Source of the DNA: an uncultured Lachnospiraceae bacterium
Lineage (GTDB): Bacteria > Bacillota > Clostridia > Lachnospirales > Lachnospiraceae
Length of the DNA: 50,833 nucleotides
Reading direction: 5' to 3'
Assembly: GCA_902781455.1 (NCBI GenBank)
Contig: CACZJF010000024.1
Coordinates: 1-50,833, forward strand
How positions within the stretch are numbered: position 1 is the first letter of the stretch; every line of letters begins with the position of its first letter. The position numbers and the translations under genes were made by a program. Positions 36,898-48,069 of the stretch are shown here, piece by piece. The notes under the pieces were generated by a model. It saw nothing but the letters and a program-made list of their open reading frames with translations. It ran no database searches and had not been told where the DNA came from.

Positions 36898-39333
36898 ATG
36901 GCAAGCCACTGGAACCGGCTCCGGTATACCCCGGTCCTGCCGCTGGGAAGAGACGGCAGAAGAGCCACTGCGTCGAAGGAGCATCTGGAACTGTCGCGCT
37001 CTGCCGCGAGCGAGGGCATGGTTCTACTGAAAAATGACAGTCATGTGCTTCCGCTGAAGAAGGGGGCGAAGGTTGCACTGTTTGGAAAAGCGACGGCAGA
37101 CTATGTGAAGGGCGGCGGCGGAAGCGGAGATGTCACCGTGCCATACCTTCGGAATCTGCACGAAGGGATGCAGATCAAGCAGAAGGAAGGAAAGGTCGAG
37201 ATTCTGGAATCTCTGGCAGACTTCTATGAAAAAAACGTTGCCCAGCAGTATGAAGACGGTGCCGCGCCGGGTATGACGGTGGAACCGGAAGTCCCAACCG
37301 CGCTTCTTGAGGAGGCGAAGGCGTTCACGGATACCGCCATCATCTCGATCTGCCGCTTCTCCGGCGAGGGGTGGGACCGCAAGACGGTTCTGAATGACAA
37401 CTATGTGCTCTCGACTGATGAACAGCGCATGTTTGATCTTTCCTCAAAGCTTTTTGAGAACGGCGATTTCTGCCTGACACGTGCAGAGCAGAAGATGGTG
37501 GATCTGGTGACAGCGCATTTCGCGAAGGTGATCGTGGTCCTGAACGTCGGCGGTGTGATGGACGTGGAGTGGTTCCGGGAAAATGACCGCATCCAGGGCG
37601 CTTTACTTGCCTTCCAGGGCGGCGTGGAGGGCGGCCTGGCCGCGGCGGATATCCTCACGGGAGATGTGAACCCGTGCGGTCACCTGTCGGATACCTTCGC
37701 CAAAACACTGGAAGACTACCCGTCGACAGCGCATTTTCATGAATCGGCTGACTACGTGGAATATACCGAGGATATCTATGTCGGATACCGGTATTTCGAG
37801 ACAATTCCGGGGGCAAAGGACAGGGCCAGCTATCCTTTCGGGTATGGTCTGTCCTATTCGGAGTTCCTGATTGTTCCTGTCTACTGCGCGCATGCCGGGG
37901 ATGAGATCGTTCTGTCGGTGAAGGCGACAAATCTGTCTGAGATGCCGGGCAAAACGGTGATCCAGATTTACGCGAAGTGCCCGCAGGGGAAACTTGGAAA
38001 GAGTGCGCTCACGCTTGTGTCATTTGCGAAGACGGGAATGCTCGGAAGCGGTGTATCTCAGACGATCGATATGACATTTCCGGTGAGCTGCCTTGCTTCT
38101 TACGACGATACGGGCAAGGTGAAGAAGTCGGCGTGGGTGCTGGAAAAGGGCGATTACACGTTCTATGCCGGGGACAGCATCAGGGATCTGACCAAGGTGC
38201 TGTATACCTGGACGCTGGAAGAGGATCTGATTCTGGAACAGCTAAAACAGCGGTGCAAGCCGGAGAAGCTTTCCAGGCGGCTGCTTGCGGACGGAAGCTT
38301 TGAAGCGCTTGCGGCAGGCGAATACCCGGAGCGTGTTCTGGGGCTGGAGCCGATCCCGGATCTGATGAATGACTATCCGACGCCCGGAAGAGAGGCCGTT
38401 CCTGCAGGGCAGGCAGTGTGGTCTCCGAAGAGAGACAGGCATCCGGAGCGGATTCTGTTTGATGATGTCGCGGACGGAAAGCATTCGCTCGACGCGTTTA
38501 TGGAGCAGCTGTCGGTTGACGAGCTGATCTCCCTGACCGGAGGACAGCCGAATACCGGCGTGGCAAACACATATGGCTGGGGCAATCTGGAGAAATGGGC
38601 CGTGCCGAACGCGATGACAGCAGACGGAGGTGCAGGCCTGCGTGTTGAGGAGAAGACCGGTGTGACGGCAACCGCGTGGCCGTGCGCGACGATGCTCGCG
38701 TGCACGTGGGACCAGGATCTGCTGGAGCGGATCGGCCGGGCACTCGCGCTCGAGGTGAAAGAGAACAACTGCTGCGTCTGGCTGGGACCGGCGATCAATA
38801 TGCACCGCAGTCCGCTCTGCGGCAGAAACTTTGAATACTATTCCGAGGATCCGCTCCTGGCCGGCCTGTGCGCGGGCGCGGTGGTGCGCGGACTGCAGTC
38901 CCAGGGGATCGGTGCCTGCGTCAAGCATTTCTGCGTCAACAACAAGGAGACGAACAGAAAAGACAGCGACTCCAGAGTCAGTGAGAGAGCGCTCCGCGAG
39001 ATCTATCTGCGCGCGTTTGAACTGATCGTCAGGCGGGAGAAGCCCTGGTCTGTCATGTCCTCCTACAATCTTCTGAACGGAACGCATACCTCGGAAAACA
39101 AGGAACTGCTGACGGGGATCCTGCGGGAAGAATGGGGATTCGACGGAGCCGTCACCACGGACTGGTGGACGAGCGGTGAGCACTATCTGGAGCTGAAAGC
39201 CGGCAATGATATCAAGATGGGCGCAGGCTATCCGGAACGTGTGAAGGAAGCGTATGAGAAGGGACTCATCACCCGGGAAGAGATTGCCGTAAATGCCAGA
39301 CGTGTTCTGGAACTGATTCTGAAACTTGCATAA
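36898..39333 (+). CDS. Glycoside hydrolase family 3 with permuted domain order (beta-glucosidase type)
   Basis: An 811-residue cytosolic glycosidase with no signal peptide. The order is reversed from normal GH3. The protein starts with the C-terminal alpha/beta domain (about residues 30-310: ASEGMVLLKNDSHVLPLKKG, and YPFGYGLSYSEF at its end), then a fibronectin-like domain (about 320-420), then the TIM-barrel domain (about 535-811: GPAINMHRSPLCGRNFEYYSEDP, KHFCVNNKE). The nucleophile is Asp755 in VTTDWW. Reversed GH3 enzymes are known from Butyrivibrio and Ruminococcus albus. It probably hydrolyses oligosaccharides imported by the upstream ABC system. AAGGAGG lies 7 nt before the ATG; an AAA+ gene follows at 14 bp. 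Confidence 0.92.
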   Translation: MASHWNRLRYTPVLPLGRDGRRATASKEHLELSRSAASEGMVLLKNDSHVLPLKKGAKVALFGKATADYVKGGGGSGDVTVPYLRNLHEGMQIKQKEGKVEILESLADFYEKNVAQQYEDGAAPGMTVEPEVPTALLEEAKAFTDTAIISICRFSGEGWDRKTVLNDNYVLSTDEQRMFDLSSKLFENGDFCLTRAEQKMVDLVTAHFAKVIVVLNVGGVMDVEWFRENDRIQGALLAFQGGVEGGLAAADILTGDVNPCGHLSDTFAKTLEDYPSTAHFHESADYVEYTEDIYVGYRYFETIPGAKDRASYPFGYGLSYSEFLIVPVYCAHAGDEIVLSVKATNLSEMPGKTVIQIYAKCPQGKLGKSALTLVSFAKTGMLGSGVSQTIDMTFPVSCLASYDDTGKVKKSAWVLEKGDYTFYAGDSIRDLTKVLYTWTLEEDLILEQLKQRCKPEKLSRRLLADGSFEALAAGEYPERVLGLEPIPDLMNDYPTPGREAVPAGQAVWSPKRDRHPERILFDDVADGKHSLDAFMEQLSVDELISLTGGQPNTGVANTYGWGNLEKWAVPNAMTADGGAGLRVEEKTGVTATAWPCATMLACTWDQDLLERIGRALALEVKENNCCVWLGPAINMHRSPLCGRNFEYYSEDPLLAGLCAGAVVRGLQSQGIGACVKHFCVNNKETNRKDSDSRVSERALREIYLRAFELIVRREKPWSVMSSYNLLNGTHTSENKELLTGILREEWGFDGAVTTDWWTSGEHYLELKAGNDIKMGAGYPERVKEAYEKGLITREEIAVNARRVLELILKLA

Positions 39334-39347
39334 AAGAGGAGAAAACT

Positions 39348-41270
39348 ATGGCGAAAGCCAGAACAATTGAACAGATACTTGCCGAGAACGGGCTCGCATT
39401 TGCGCCGAACATGGAACAGCATTACATGGACGAGCTGGAGGGCATCTGGAACGAAGCATGCGAGGAGAGCGGTGGAGAGATCACGGACGCCAGAATCGAT
39501 GAGTACCTGGATGTGCTCAGGAAGATGGGGCTTGCGATCCCGGTGCACCGCGAGACCATGGAGCGTGAGCGTTCCAGACGCCGGTCGGATGCACCTGATC
39601 CGGAGGTGGTCCGGATGCGGAAGCTGATCTCGGAGGAGAAGGCGAGCGAACGCTCGAAAAAAGCGGAGAGAAAGGCAGCGCAGAAGGCGCACGCGAAAGC
39701 GGGGAAAAAGCCGGACCTTTCCCGCAAGGCGCACGGGAAGCTGACAGGTCCGGGCATCTCCGGCTGCGGCCCGGCTCTTTCCTGGGAGGATCCGGACGCA
39801 CTGCATCCTTCTGATGCCGGACCGGATCCCGATGAGGTTTACCGGATCTTTCCTGCCCAGCCGAAGACGGATCTGGGGCACCGGATCTTTCTGATTCTGA
39901 CGGTTCCCGCGGGACGTGACATACCGCACCGGATCGCAGGCGGATTCACGAATCCGGACAGAAGACTCGCCTTTGAGTACTATGACGGCGGGGAACGCCA
40001 TCACATGTCACGGCTGGATATGAACGGAGCGGATATCCGGTTCAGAAAGCTGTTCTCCTGGCTTGGGACGCACCACATCTCTGTCCGCCTGAGCGGGACG
40101 AGAGACGGGAATTCCTTCTATGTATACCGGATCAAGGCGGTGGATCCGCCCATGGACGGCGGAAGCCTGCAACCTTTTGAGGACCAGTTTCTGCAGTATA
40201 TGATCGAGCGGCTGCGCACGTCCATTCTGCAGGCCGGAGATGAGGAGATCCCGGAGCAGATGAGCATGACGACGCTGCCCGAGATCATCAATTTCATGGA
40301 CTGCTGCGCGGACACATTGCCGGCCAATATCCGGCAGTGGGCGAGGAAAAACATCATCACTGCAGGCCAGGACGGCGGAAATGCGGACGAGAAGCGCCAT
40401 GCGCAGAGGGCGCTTTCCATGATGCTGCAGGTGCGCTGGAGAAGCTCTTACTTTGACCCGATTGATCCGGTGGAGGCCAGAAAAATTCTGGACGAGGAGT
40501 TGTATGGCCTTGAGAACGTGAAGCAGCGTGTCATAGAGACCATCATTCAGATCAACAGGACCCATACTCTGCCAAGCTATGGCCTGCTGCTGGCCGGACC
40601 GGCCGGAACGGGGAAGAGCCAGATCGCGTATGCGGTCGCGAGAATCCTGAAGATTCCTTCTGCTGTCTTCGATATGAGCACGGTCCGTGATCCGGAGGCG
40701 CTCACGGGGACGCCGCGCATCTATACGAATGCCAGACCGGGGAGAATCATGGAAGCATTTTCCCAGACAGGCAGCTCAAACATCGTGTTCGTGATCAATG
40801 AGCTGGATAAGGCGGACCACAGGGGGCAGAACGGCAATCCTGCGGATACGCTGCTGTCGCTGCTGGACAATCTGGGATTCACCGACAATTACATGGAATG
40901 CCAGATTCCGACACAGGGCGTCTATCCCATCGCGACGGCAAACAAAAAGGACCGGATCTCAGAGCCGCTGATCACGCGGTTCGCCGTGATTGACATCCCG
41001 GATTACACGAGCGAAGAAAAGAAGATCATCTTCAGGGATTACTCGCTGCCGAAGGTTTTCCGGCGCATGGGAATGAATCCGGAAGAGTGCCGGATCACGC
41101 CGGAGGCAGTAGATTCGATCATCGATCTGTACAAGGACAGGCCCGGATGCCGGGACCTGGAGCAGGCGGCCGAACACCTGGCAGCCCACGCACTCTTCGA
41201 GATTGAGACGGGCGGCGCGGCGTATGTGGAATACGACGCGGTGAAGGCAAGACAGCTGCTGAAGGCATAA
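39348..41270 (+). CDS. Lon-type AAA+ ATPase lacking the protease domain
   Basis: A 640-residue protein. Residues about 385-635 match the ATPase module of Lon: LDEELYGLENVKQRVIETI, Walker A GPAGTGKS (417-424), then IATANKKDRISEPLITRF (sensor 1 and arginine finger region), YTSEEKKIIFRDYSLPK, and PGCRDLEQAAEHL (sensor 2). The chain ends there, with no Ser-Lys protease domain. Walker B reads VFVINELDKA: the usual Asp before Glu is Asn484, while Glu485 is kept. The N-terminal 380 residues (a Lys/Ala-rich charged segment near 95-140, then a region of strands and helices) are not Lon-like and I do not recognise them. It lies 14 bp after the GH3 gene, with AGAGGAGAAA before the ATG. Its substrate is unknown. 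Confidence 0.82.
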   Translation: MAKARTIEQILAENGLAFAPNMEQHYMDELEGIWNEACEESGGEITDARIDEYLDVLRKMGLAIPVHRETMERERSRRRSDAPDPEVVRMRKLISEEKASERSKKAERKAAQKAHAKAGKKPDLSRKAHGKLTGPGISGCGPALSWEDPDALHPSDAGPDPDEVYRIFPAQPKTDLGHRIFLILTVPAGRDIPHRIAGGFTNPDRRLAFEYYDGGERHHMSRLDMNGADIRFRKLFSWLGTHHISVRLSGTRDGNSFYVYRIKAVDPPMDGGSLQPFEDQFLQYMIERLRTSILQAGDEEIPEQMSMTTLPEIINFMDCCADTLPANIRQWARKNIITAGQDGGNADEKRHAQRALSMMLQVRWRSSYFDPIDPVEARKILDEELYGLENVKQRVIETIIQINRTHTLPSYGLLLAGPAGTGKSQIAYAVARILKIPSAVFDMSTVRDPEALTGTPRIYTNARPGRIMEAFSQTGSSNIVFVINELDKADHRGQNGNPADTLLSLLDNLGFTDNYMECQIPTQGVYPIATANKKDRISEPLITRFAVIDIPDYTSEEKKIIFRDYSLPKVFRRMGMNPEECRITPEAVDSIIDLYKDRPGCRDLEQAAEHLAAHALFEIETGGAAYVEYDAVKARQLLKA

Positions 41271-45884: not shown

Positions 45885-45960
45885 CATCATCGATCCATCA
45901 TCGCCCGGGCGATATAAAAATGAAAACAGATGCTGATTGACTTGCAAAAGAGGTGTCAAC

Positions 45961-48069
45961 ATGAACAGACAGCAAGCTAGAGAGTGCGCCAGAGCGCTGG
46001 TATCAAAGATGACCATCGCGGAGAAGATGAGTCAGCTTCGCTATGATTCCCCGGAGATCGCAAGACTGGGAATACCGGCTTACAACTGGTGGAATGAAGG
46101 CCTGCACGGTGTTGCCAGGGCAGGCACGGCGACCAGCTTCCCGCAGGCAATCGGCATGGGAGCAACCTTTGACGAAGAGCTGTTGGGTAAGATCGGCGAT
46201 GTGATCGCGACGGAAGGCCGGGCGAAGTACAATACATACAGCGCATTCGGCGACAGAGACATCTACAAGGGACTGACCTTCTGGTCGCCTAACGTCAATA
46301 TCTTCCGTGATCCCAGATGGGGACGCGGGCAGGAAACCTACGGTGAAGACCCTTATCTGACGGGTACGCTTGGTGTTTCTTTTGTAAAGGGGCTTCAGGG
46401 GGACGGCGAATATATGAAAGCCGCTGCCTGCGCCAAGCACTTCGCGGTCCATTCCGGACCGGAAGCGATCCGTCACAGCTTTGACGCCAGAGCAGACGCG
46501 AAGGATATGGCGGAGACCTATCTGCCTGCCTTCCGGCGCCTGGTGGAAGAAGCAGATGTGGAAGCTGTCATGGGCTGCTACAACCGCGTCAACGGTGAGC
46601 CGGCGTGCGGCAGCCATACCTTGCTTGCGGACATCCTGCGCGGAACCTGGAATTTCCAGGGGCATGTCGTGTCAGACTGCTGGGCAATCCGGGATTTCCA
46701 CGAGAACCATCATGTGACAGAGGATGCTGCGCACAGCGCGGCACTGGCCATCAACGAGGGCTGCGACCTGAACTGCGGAGACACCTATCAGGTGCTTCCG
46801 GAAGCATACGGCAAGGGCCTGATCTCGGAGGAGAGAATTACGGAGGCTGCCGAGCGGCTGTTTACGACAAGATTCCTCCTTGGCCTGTTCGATGAGACAG
46901 AGTACGACGAGATTCCGTACAGCGTCGTGGAATGTGAAGAACATCTTCAGCTTGCGCAGCGCTGCGCGGAGGAATCGATTGTTCTTCTGAAGAATGACGG
47001 CGTTCTTCCGCTGGATCCCGGATCCATCAGGACGCTGGGCGTTGTCGGGCCGAACGCGGATTCCAGAGCCGCGCTGATCGGAAACTATCATGGAACCAGC
47101 AGTGAGTACATCACGGTGCTGGAAGGTCTTCGCAGAGTTCTGCCGGATTCTGTCAGAATCCTTTACTCCGAAGGCTGCGCGCTGAACGCAGACAAGGTGG
47201 AGCATCTTGCTTTCGAAAATGACCGCCTGAGCGAGGCGATGATCGTGACGGACCAGTCGGACGTGACCATCGTCGTGGTCGGTCTGAATGAGACGCTGGA
47301 GGGAGAAGAGGGGGACACCGGAAACAGTGCCGCCTCGGGAGACAAGACGGATCTGTCCCTTCCACAGTCACAGATTGCCCTGATACACGCGGTGGCTTCC
47401 CAGGCAAAAGAGGCGGGGAAGAAGACCATCCTCTGCCTGATGGCAGGCAGTGATCTGGATCTGTCCTTTGCGCAGGAAAACTTTGACGCTGTCCTGATGC
47501 TCTGGTATCCGGGCGCGAGAGGCGGACTTGCGGCGGCAAGAATCCTGACCGGCGCGGTGTCACCGTCCGGCAAGCTGAATGTAACCTTCTATGATCCGGA
47601 TCGTCCGCTTCCGGCGTTTACGGATTACTCGATGAAAGACCGCACCTACCGTTATCTCGGAGGGAAACCGCAGTATCCGTTCGGATACGGTCTGACCTAT
47701 GCGGATGTGGAGGTGACCGGGGCAAGTCTGGAGCAGGATGGTCCTGCCGCGCTCATGTATGTCAGCTTTGCCAATCACAGCGCAGTACCGACATCGGAAG
47801 TGATTCAGATCTATGTGGATGCAGTAGAATCTCCTGACAGGACGCCGAATCCAAGGCTGTGCGGATTCCTCAGGGTGGACGCTCCTGCGCACCAGGAAGC
47901 GGAATGCACCATAACGCTGGACGCTGATGTGTTCCGCGTTGTCAACAAGAAGGGCGAAACCGTGCCGGGAGGGGACAGATTTGTGCTCTACGCCGGAACC
48001 TGCAGCCCGGGGGAAAGAGCCGGAGAGCTGACAGGCAGGGAGCCTGTAACGGTTGAGATCAATTTGTAA
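45961..48069 (+). CDS. Glycoside hydrolase family 3, canonical order (beta-xylosidase/beta-glucosidase type)
   Basis: A 702-residue cytosolic enzyme with no signal peptide. The TIM barrel comes first (about residues 15-300): YNWWNEGLHGVARAG, SPNVNIFRDPRWGRGQETYG and KHFAVHSGPE, with nucleophile Asp239 in VVSDCWAI. The alpha/beta C-terminal domain (about 330-560: AEESIVLLKNDGVLPL) and fibronectin-like domain (about 590-690) follow, ending near YPFGYGLTYADVEV. The NWWNEGLHG and SDCWAI patterns resemble the beta-xylosidase branch of GH3, so xylo-oligosaccharides are a fair guess for this locus. ATG 45961 lies after AGAGGTG; a TTG extension to 45937 is rejected. Confidence 0.93.
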   Translation: MNRQQARECARALVSKMTIAEKMSQLRYDSPEIARLGIPAYNWWNEGLHGVARAGTATSFPQAIGMGATFDEELLGKIGDVIATEGRAKYNTYSAFGDRDIYKGLTFWSPNVNIFRDPRWGRGQETYGEDPYLTGTLGVSFVKGLQGDGEYMKAAACAKHFAVHSGPEAIRHSFDARADAKDMAETYLPAFRRLVEEADVEAVMGCYNRVNGEPACGSHTLLADILRGTWNFQGHVVSDCWAIRDFHENHHVTEDAAHSAALAINEGCDLNCGDTYQVLPEAYGKGLISEERITEAAERLFTTRFLLGLFDETEYDEIPYSVVECEEHLQLAQRCAEESIVLLKNDGVLPLDPGSIRTLGVVGPNADSRAALIGNYHGTSSEYITVLEGLRRVLPDSVRILYSEGCALNADKVEHLAFENDRLSEAMIVTDQSDVTIVVVGLNETLEGEEGDTGNSAASGDKTDLSLPQSQIALIHAVASQAKEAGKKTILCLMAGSDLDLSFAQENFDAVLMLWYPGARGGLAAARILTGAVSPSGKLNVTFYDPDRPLPAFTDYSMKDRTYRYLGGKPQYPFGYGLTYADVEVTGASLEQDGPAALMYVSFANHSAVPTSEVIQIYVDAVESPDRTPNPRLCGFLRVDAPAHQEAECTITLDADVFRVVNKKGETVPGGDRFVLYAGTCSPGERAGELTGREPVTVEINL

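Follow-up and report, generated by a model that had tools for sequence, protein, structure and literature searches.

The gene at 39348..41270 on the forward strand of the window (the whole stretch of 50,833 nucleotides analysed here, from an uncultured Lachnospiraceae bacterium) encodes a protein of 640 amino acids that carries a Lon-related AAA+ ATPase and no protease, and the question raised by this locus is whether such a protein is a broken Lon, a one-off, or a member of a family with work of its own. The open reading frame starts with ATG, is supported by profile and structure matches, and is preceded by a ribosome-binding site (aagaggag, 39334..39341, +) that can be read directly and ends 6 bases before the start codon. 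Its product divides, with all parts on the forward strand, into a helical N-terminal extension found in long forms only (residues 1-110, 39348..39677); a variable linker with insertions and deletions (residues 111-160, 39678..39827; model confidence is low at 120-149); a conserved N-domain of predicted strands and one helix (residues 161-268, 39828..40151); a helical region (residues 269-385, 40152..40502), of which residues ~324-385 are homologous to the helical linker before the AAA+ core of Lon; and the AAA+ core and lid (residues 386-640, 40503..41267), which end after sensor 2 with no protease domain.

The relationship to Lon is evident from both profile and structure searches. The Lon equivalog profile TIGR00763 matches residues 324-621 (profile positions 267-566 of 795, E 2e-52), in agreement with the first-pass annotation, which had called the ATPase module Lon-like through sensor 2; since nothing beyond profile position 566 is matched, the protein has no Ser-Lys protease domain in cis, as that annotation had also claimed. 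The closest solved structure by sequence is Lon 3m6a (residues 325-609), Foldseek alignments of the predicted model to Lon chains span 322-375 columns (best E 2e-23, among the best 50 matches), and identity to the ordinary Lon of the same genome is ~34% over ~290 residues. Shared with Lon (LonA, TIGR00763) are the AAA+ core, lid, sensor 2, helical linker, pore-loop Tyr and catalytic Glu, whereas the protease domain is missing, Walker A has Ser for Thr and Walker B Asn for Asp, the N-domain is unmatched to that of Lon in the searches run, and the loop that leads from the Walker B helix to sensor 1 is shorter. The TIGR00763 score (178.6 bits) does not reach equivalog level (curated cut-off 608); this, the lack of a protease domain and the altered Walker B exclude the protein, on sequence, from Lon proper. 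Pfam AAA matches residues 413-547; the only Pfam models above cut-off are the broad AAA families PF00004 and PF07728, none specific, so that domain searching assigns the protein to no narrower known family. The comparisons indicate a variant form of the Lon AAA+ module that spans the lineage and apparently has no name. The earlier suggestion of something new holds to that extent, although "new type" is too strong for a protein whose AAA+ module is that of Lon and whose remodelling activity is putative.

Loss of the protease is a property of all the relatives sampled, only 155-160 residues following Walker B in 102/102 loci, which answers in the affirmative the question of whether the loss is conserved among homologues. 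A PF05362 profile search found no Lon protease domain on the contig carrying the gene, no protease gene was found beside it in the window, and the neighbours of relatives were compared by clustering (see below). Elsewhere in the same genome (81% complete) the sole PF05362 match above cut-off is the ordinary Lon, whose frame of 862 codons lies on a different contig; one more match, on a third contig, falls below cut-off (20.5 of 21.1 bits). One relative's genome (G028) has the final 119 codons of such a protease domain at a contig edge, ~9 kb from the family gene, which we interpret as the tail of an ordinary Lon.

Degradation might instead be divided between two proteins, with the present one acting as an unfoldase that docks on a partner protease, for example ClpP or HslV, an arrangement that we regard as very unlikely. 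It would draw on the retained Lon-type unfolding module and on the tripeptide LGF (residues 509-511), which resembles those of ClpP-docking loops and lies within a low-confidence stretch of the model. However, the Phe of this tripeptide aligns with a Phe that is invariant in 30/30 ordinary Lons, which work without ClpP, and is replaced by Tyr in 10/52 family members, and no Lon protease domain is present on the contig; a docking loop at 509-511 is considered doubtful because its Phe is common to Lons. ClpX/ClpA-type unfoldases remain comparable in that they unfold proteins by an AAA+ ring without a protease of their own, as the family may do, but no ClpP-docking loop is recognised in the family and the NCBIfam matches are partial and far weaker than that to Lon (ClpA 7e-6, ClpX 1.5e-4).

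The N-terminal region had been described as 380 residues that match nothing. This holds for residues ~1-320, which no search run here assigns (for 161-268 there is no convincing match in Pfam, in PDB or among the viral structure models of BFVD), but not for residues ~324-385, which align with the helical linker of Lon. Ahead of the AAA core, the 640-residue protein has no Pfam match above cut-off, and Pfam searches with the N-domain of 52 members gave at best E 0.0075 (Gemin6_C, two members); an N-domain profile run against PDB sequences returned nothing significant (best E 0.52). Residues 160-343 are modelled with confidence (mean pLDDT 87, pTM 0.74; the pTM of the whole-chain model is low, 0.51) in the predicted order strands, helix, two further strands and then helices, and Foldseek searches with this model found no fold match at E <= 0.001 in either PDB (best 0.094) or BFVD (best 0.011). 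Lon possesses an N-terminal substrate-binding domain; no domain of that type was matched at Pfam cut-offs or among PDB folds at E up to 0.001. The N-domain looks, as far as the predicted model can indicate, like a fold not yet described or a strongly diverged known one; it may also be a cellular fold that is known but has no solved structure. An OB-fold interpretation of residues 182-265, suggested by the order of the strands, was set aside, no fold match supporting it. This domain (161-268) was seen only joined to the protease-less Lon-related ATPase: it occurs in 42/150 Lachnospiraceae genomes, every time on a contig with a member of the protein family and in open frames of 495-748 amino acids, and in 2/249 genomes of the phylum, both Lachnospiraceae.

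The extension bears on the proposal that the protein is a DNA or RNA motor with a winged-helix nucleic-acid binder at its N-terminus, to which we assign a low probability. Residues 33-64 give a sub-threshold match to MCM_C, a winged-helix family (E 4e-4, 20.5 bits against a cut-off of 27; E 0.0079 in the whole-protein scan), and a precedent exists in BrxL of BREX systems, described as a Lon-annotated AAA+ protein that lacks the Lon protease residues and binds DNA (PMC10164562). Against this, the extension is missing from the short forms that make up 58/71 loci outside the genus, the weak MCM_C match recurs in only one of five other long-form segments scanned, and the pore-loop Tyr is conserved as in protein translocases. 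The winged-helix reading of residues 1-65 was itself rejected, the match being below cut-off. BrxL further differs in retaining a Lon/RadA-like C-terminal domain, whereas the family ends after the AAA+ lid. PADLOC returned only weak matches to the AAA core (best E 9e-5), BrxL not among them; membership of BREX or another defence AAA+ system thus has no PADLOC support, nor is there a neighbour common to the whole family.

Whether the protein is a one-off was addressed through its distribution. A first search of 61 genomes gave high-scoring matches in 17/19 of the same genus (source genome included) and in 5/18 other Lachnospiraceae, and an even draw of Lachnospiraceae genomes gave matches at E <= 1e-60 in 82/299. 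Beyond the family level, an order-level draw was positive in 8/196 genomes, all of them Lachnospiraceae, and a phylum draw gave 4/398 at E <= 1e-55, three of which were Lachnospiraceae; the fourth proved to be an ordinary Lon, with Asp-Glu in Walker B and a protease motif. No member outside Lachnospiraceae was confirmed in the order and phylum draws, whose strict thresholds could miss very distant members. A contig scan with two patterns taken from conserved AAA+ stretches, the loci from which favour typical members, yielded at least 559 stretches encoding relatives, of which 80 of 559 were retained. Most record titles refer to Lachnospiraceae or to genera usually assigned to it (Blautia, Mediterraneibacter, Fusicatenibacter, Oribacterium and others), and some name Clostridium, Eubacterium, "Clostridia" or "Firmicutes". 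No description of a protease-less Lon family appeared among the papers listed in searches of the open-access literature.

Two forms can be distinguished. Short members, of ~495 amino acids, start just before the N-domain, and this form (<=280 residues before the conserved NRTHTLP or a variant of it) accounts for 58/71 loci outside the genus. More than 280 residues precede the motif in the remaining 13/71 and in 17/17 loci of the genus, mostly as an extra helical extension, although two of the 13 longer loci (L095 and L106) look like short forms whose start was called too early. Six sampled genomes (G104, G112, G132, G250, G280 and G308) have two copies; in G308 and G112 these are one long and one short copy on different contigs, which suggests old paralogues with separate clients. 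Two members are interrupted, one by an in-frame TAA (G065:C1:4226-5647) and one by a split into two frames (G246:C6:85363-86708), each being a possible pseudogene or assembly error.

A decayed and functionless Lon paralogue would account for the absent protease domain and the changed catalytic residue, and also for the member with the in-frame stop and the split member, yet we consider it highly improbable. The other matches of the 299-genome search contain no internal stop. Across 17 congeneric sequences (121/136 pairs, the others left out mainly as saturated) the median dN/dS of the whole gene is 0.089, a rough value given dS medians of 1.2-1.6, which denotes purifying selection and therefore also argues against a chance open reading frame; by part, the medians are lowest in the AAA+ region (0.052), followed by the N-domain (0.117), the extension (0.15) and the linker (0.259). 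In a tree of half the members (26 of 52) and 30 Lons, the two groups are separated by a single, fully supported and very long branch, with the attendant warning of long-branch effects; on sequence evidence this looks like an old split and not a recent loss. These protease-less Lon-related proteins are accordingly a family, neither broken Lons nor a one-off.

The family gene is not tied to Lon. Two genomes (G018, 94% complete, and G027, 96%) contain it with no other Lon match at E <= 1e-20, and the protein is therefore not simply a Lon subunit; relatives such as G019-G023 have Lon and lack the family gene, though assembly gaps could explain single absences. Among 150 Lachnospiraceae genomes, drawn alike for each marker, there was no positive co-occurrence with flagellin, bacterial microcompartment (BMC) shell proteins or Spo0A, the respective counts being 15/42, 8/42 and 28/42 genomes with the gene vs 66/108, 32/108 and 75/108 without it. 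The association with flagellin is negative (P 0.006, not corrected for ancestry), and the under-representation of the gene in flagellin-bearing genomes probably reflects shared ancestry.

The catalytic site was compared between 52 family members, thinned below 88% BLAST identity, and 30 ordinary Lons, one per locus. The Lons were picked with a pattern requiring DE, so that their Walker B invariance is partly built in. Walker A (GPAGTGKS, residues 417-424, 40596..40619, +) has its Lys (K423) in 52/52 members and 30/30 Lons, followed by Ser (S424) in 52/52 members vs Thr in 30/30 Lons. Walker B (VFVINELD, 40785..40808, +) has Asn484 (40797-40799) in the place of the Asp and retains Glu485, as had been noted at the outset, and reads FVINELDKA; the Asn is present in 52/52 members vs Asp in 30/30 of the Lons so chosen, and the earlier question of its conservation can be answered positively, whilst the catalytic Glu is common to 52/52 members and 30/30 Lons of the same selection. 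The broader set of 102 open reading frames, one from each of 102 loci and chosen by patterns that include NELDKA or NRTHTLP, is uniformly Asn-Glu (NELDKA 98, NELDKS 4); 14 of these loci (L043-L056) are contigs already sampled, and 87 distinct proteins remain.

The other residues of ATP turnover and threading are kept. Sensor 1 Asn (N532, 40941..40943, +), sensor 2 Arg (R602, 41151..41153, +), the pore-loop Tyr (Y459, 40722..40724, +, located by alignment column) and the candidate arginine finger R544 (40977..40979, +), at what is presumably the classical arginine-finger position, are each found by alignment in 52/52 members and 30/30 Lons. A second candidate finger, R457, is Arg in 52/52 members, the Lons having Arg (19) or Lys (11), and occupies the position of a trans-acting arginine named for yeast Lon in PMC8913295. 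With respect to the functional residues listed there (K638, R672, Y674, E700, N750 and R820), the spacing agrees fully for the first four, and for N750 and R820 after one common shortening of 3 residues. The pore loop differs beyond its Tyr: the next residue is Ala, Ser or Thr in 50/52 members vs Ile, Val or Leu in 30/30 Lons, and the second is Asn in 52/52 members vs Gly in 30/30 Lons. In yeast Lon the hydrophobic partner of the pore tyrosine is Ile675, and the grip on the chain may therefore differ in the family.

Since the family retains its catalytic Glu, both sensors, the pore Tyr and the candidate arginine fingers, we infer a working ring motor, and put at roughly even the chances that the protein is a stand-alone, ring-forming remodeller of other proteins, driven by ATP, that uses the Lon ATPase module. 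The N-domain, together with the extension in long forms, would grip a client; the AAA+ ring would tug it by the conserved pore-loop tyrosine; and the client would be remodelled or unfolded and then released, release and not degradation being expected because there is no protease chamber. With Ser/Asn replacing Thr/Asp, the ATPase would be active, though probably slow or tightly controlled by the client. Retention of the catalytic Glu, sensor 1 and the pore Tyr would not be expected of an inactive enzyme.

The Walker B Asn is nevertheless the weak point of reading the protein as an active motor. According to PMC9599734, Asp-to-Asn mutants of P-loop enzymes bind NTP and hydrolyse it very poorly, which is ascribed there to loss of a proton trap in the Ser/Thr-Asp pair. 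The protein might thus be a switch or clamp whose ring binds ATP and closes on a client, hydrolysing very slowly or not at all for want of the Walker B Asp, so that work is done by ATP occupancy and not by threading. This is a possible but distinctly less probable reading. It would fit the contrast of Asn in every member with Asp in every Lon compared, the catalytic incompetence of such NTP-binding variants elsewhere (PMC9599734), and the small or polar residue at the pore-loop hydrophobic position in 50/52 members; it has to contend with the invariance of the catalytic Glu, both sensors, both candidate arginine fingers and the pore Tyr, and with Rubisco activase, which has Asn at the same position.

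Rubisco activase is an ATP-hydrolysing, non-proteolytic remodeller, and chains 4w5w and 3t15 of it combine GKS with LFINDLD, the same Ser/Asn pairing as in the family; for this reason the active remodeller is preferred over the ATP switch. The likeness extends to its being a protease-less AAA+ protein with Walker A GKS and Walker B Asn, but the second Walker B position is Asp in activase and Glu in the family, and the client of activase is Rubisco. Activase was not among the best 60 of 108 PDB sequence matches, which were to Lon, p97 and related AAA proteins, and no natural case of a Walker B Asn was found in the literature searched. With the Ser-Asn pair fixed and the other catalytic parts kept, we tentatively propose that the family either hydrolyses ATP and threads clients without the Asp, or represents a natural ATP-locked Lon ring that clamps them.

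In either event, common bacteria of the gut and rumen conserve in this family an ATPase in which the Lon motor has been separated from the Lon protease, and its fixed Asn offers a natural test of the requirement for the Walker B Asp in ATP hydrolysis. Hydrolysis without this Asp, if true, would contradict the proposal, as set out in PMC9599734, that it is required as a proton trap.

The upstream neighbour of the gene is conserved within the genus only. The gene lies 14 bp after a GH3 glycosidase gene (36898..39333, +, identified by Pfam; stop codon 39331-39333), as originally noted, and GH3 adjoins the family gene in 14/17 genus loci and lies ~480 bp away in a fifteenth (L037); it was not found in the available sequence of L026 and L038. 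Outside the genus the adjacency is seen in 0/71 loci, 63 of them with at least 400 bp upstream, and the suggestion in the first-pass annotation of action on proteins of this locus, here a sugar locus, does not hold as a general function. Clustering the neighbours of these 71 loci, many of which are truncated by the end of a contig, at 35% identity over 60% of the longer sequence revealed no gene common to the whole family: no cluster occurs in more than 7 of 71 loci, on which ground a conserved operon was rejected, and the shared neighbours among those listed look like local synteny or ABC-type genes.

A phage or mobile origin was likewise rejected, only 2 of 123 pattern matches in viral contigs encoding a relative, one a fragment at 70% identity and one a weak match at 30%. 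The former, an AAA+ part in a viral-collection contig (L157:2-721), is probably host DNA. The best PHROGs match is an unnamed profile of 793 positions (residues 323-610), the others being weak and confined to the AAA part.

Some features of the surrounding genes may be recorded in their own right. In one congener (L025:164-2835) genes for a RelA/SpoT-type synthetase, a response regulator and a histidine kinase stand just upstream of GH3, and several other congeners have genes of the same three clusters there; in the window, no gene of these three kinds was called in the interval from the permease gene to GH3. The GH3 at 36898-39333 has its Pfam domains reversed, the C-terminal domain coming first and the N-terminal domain last, whilst a second GH3 in the window, at 45937-48069, is without this reversal.
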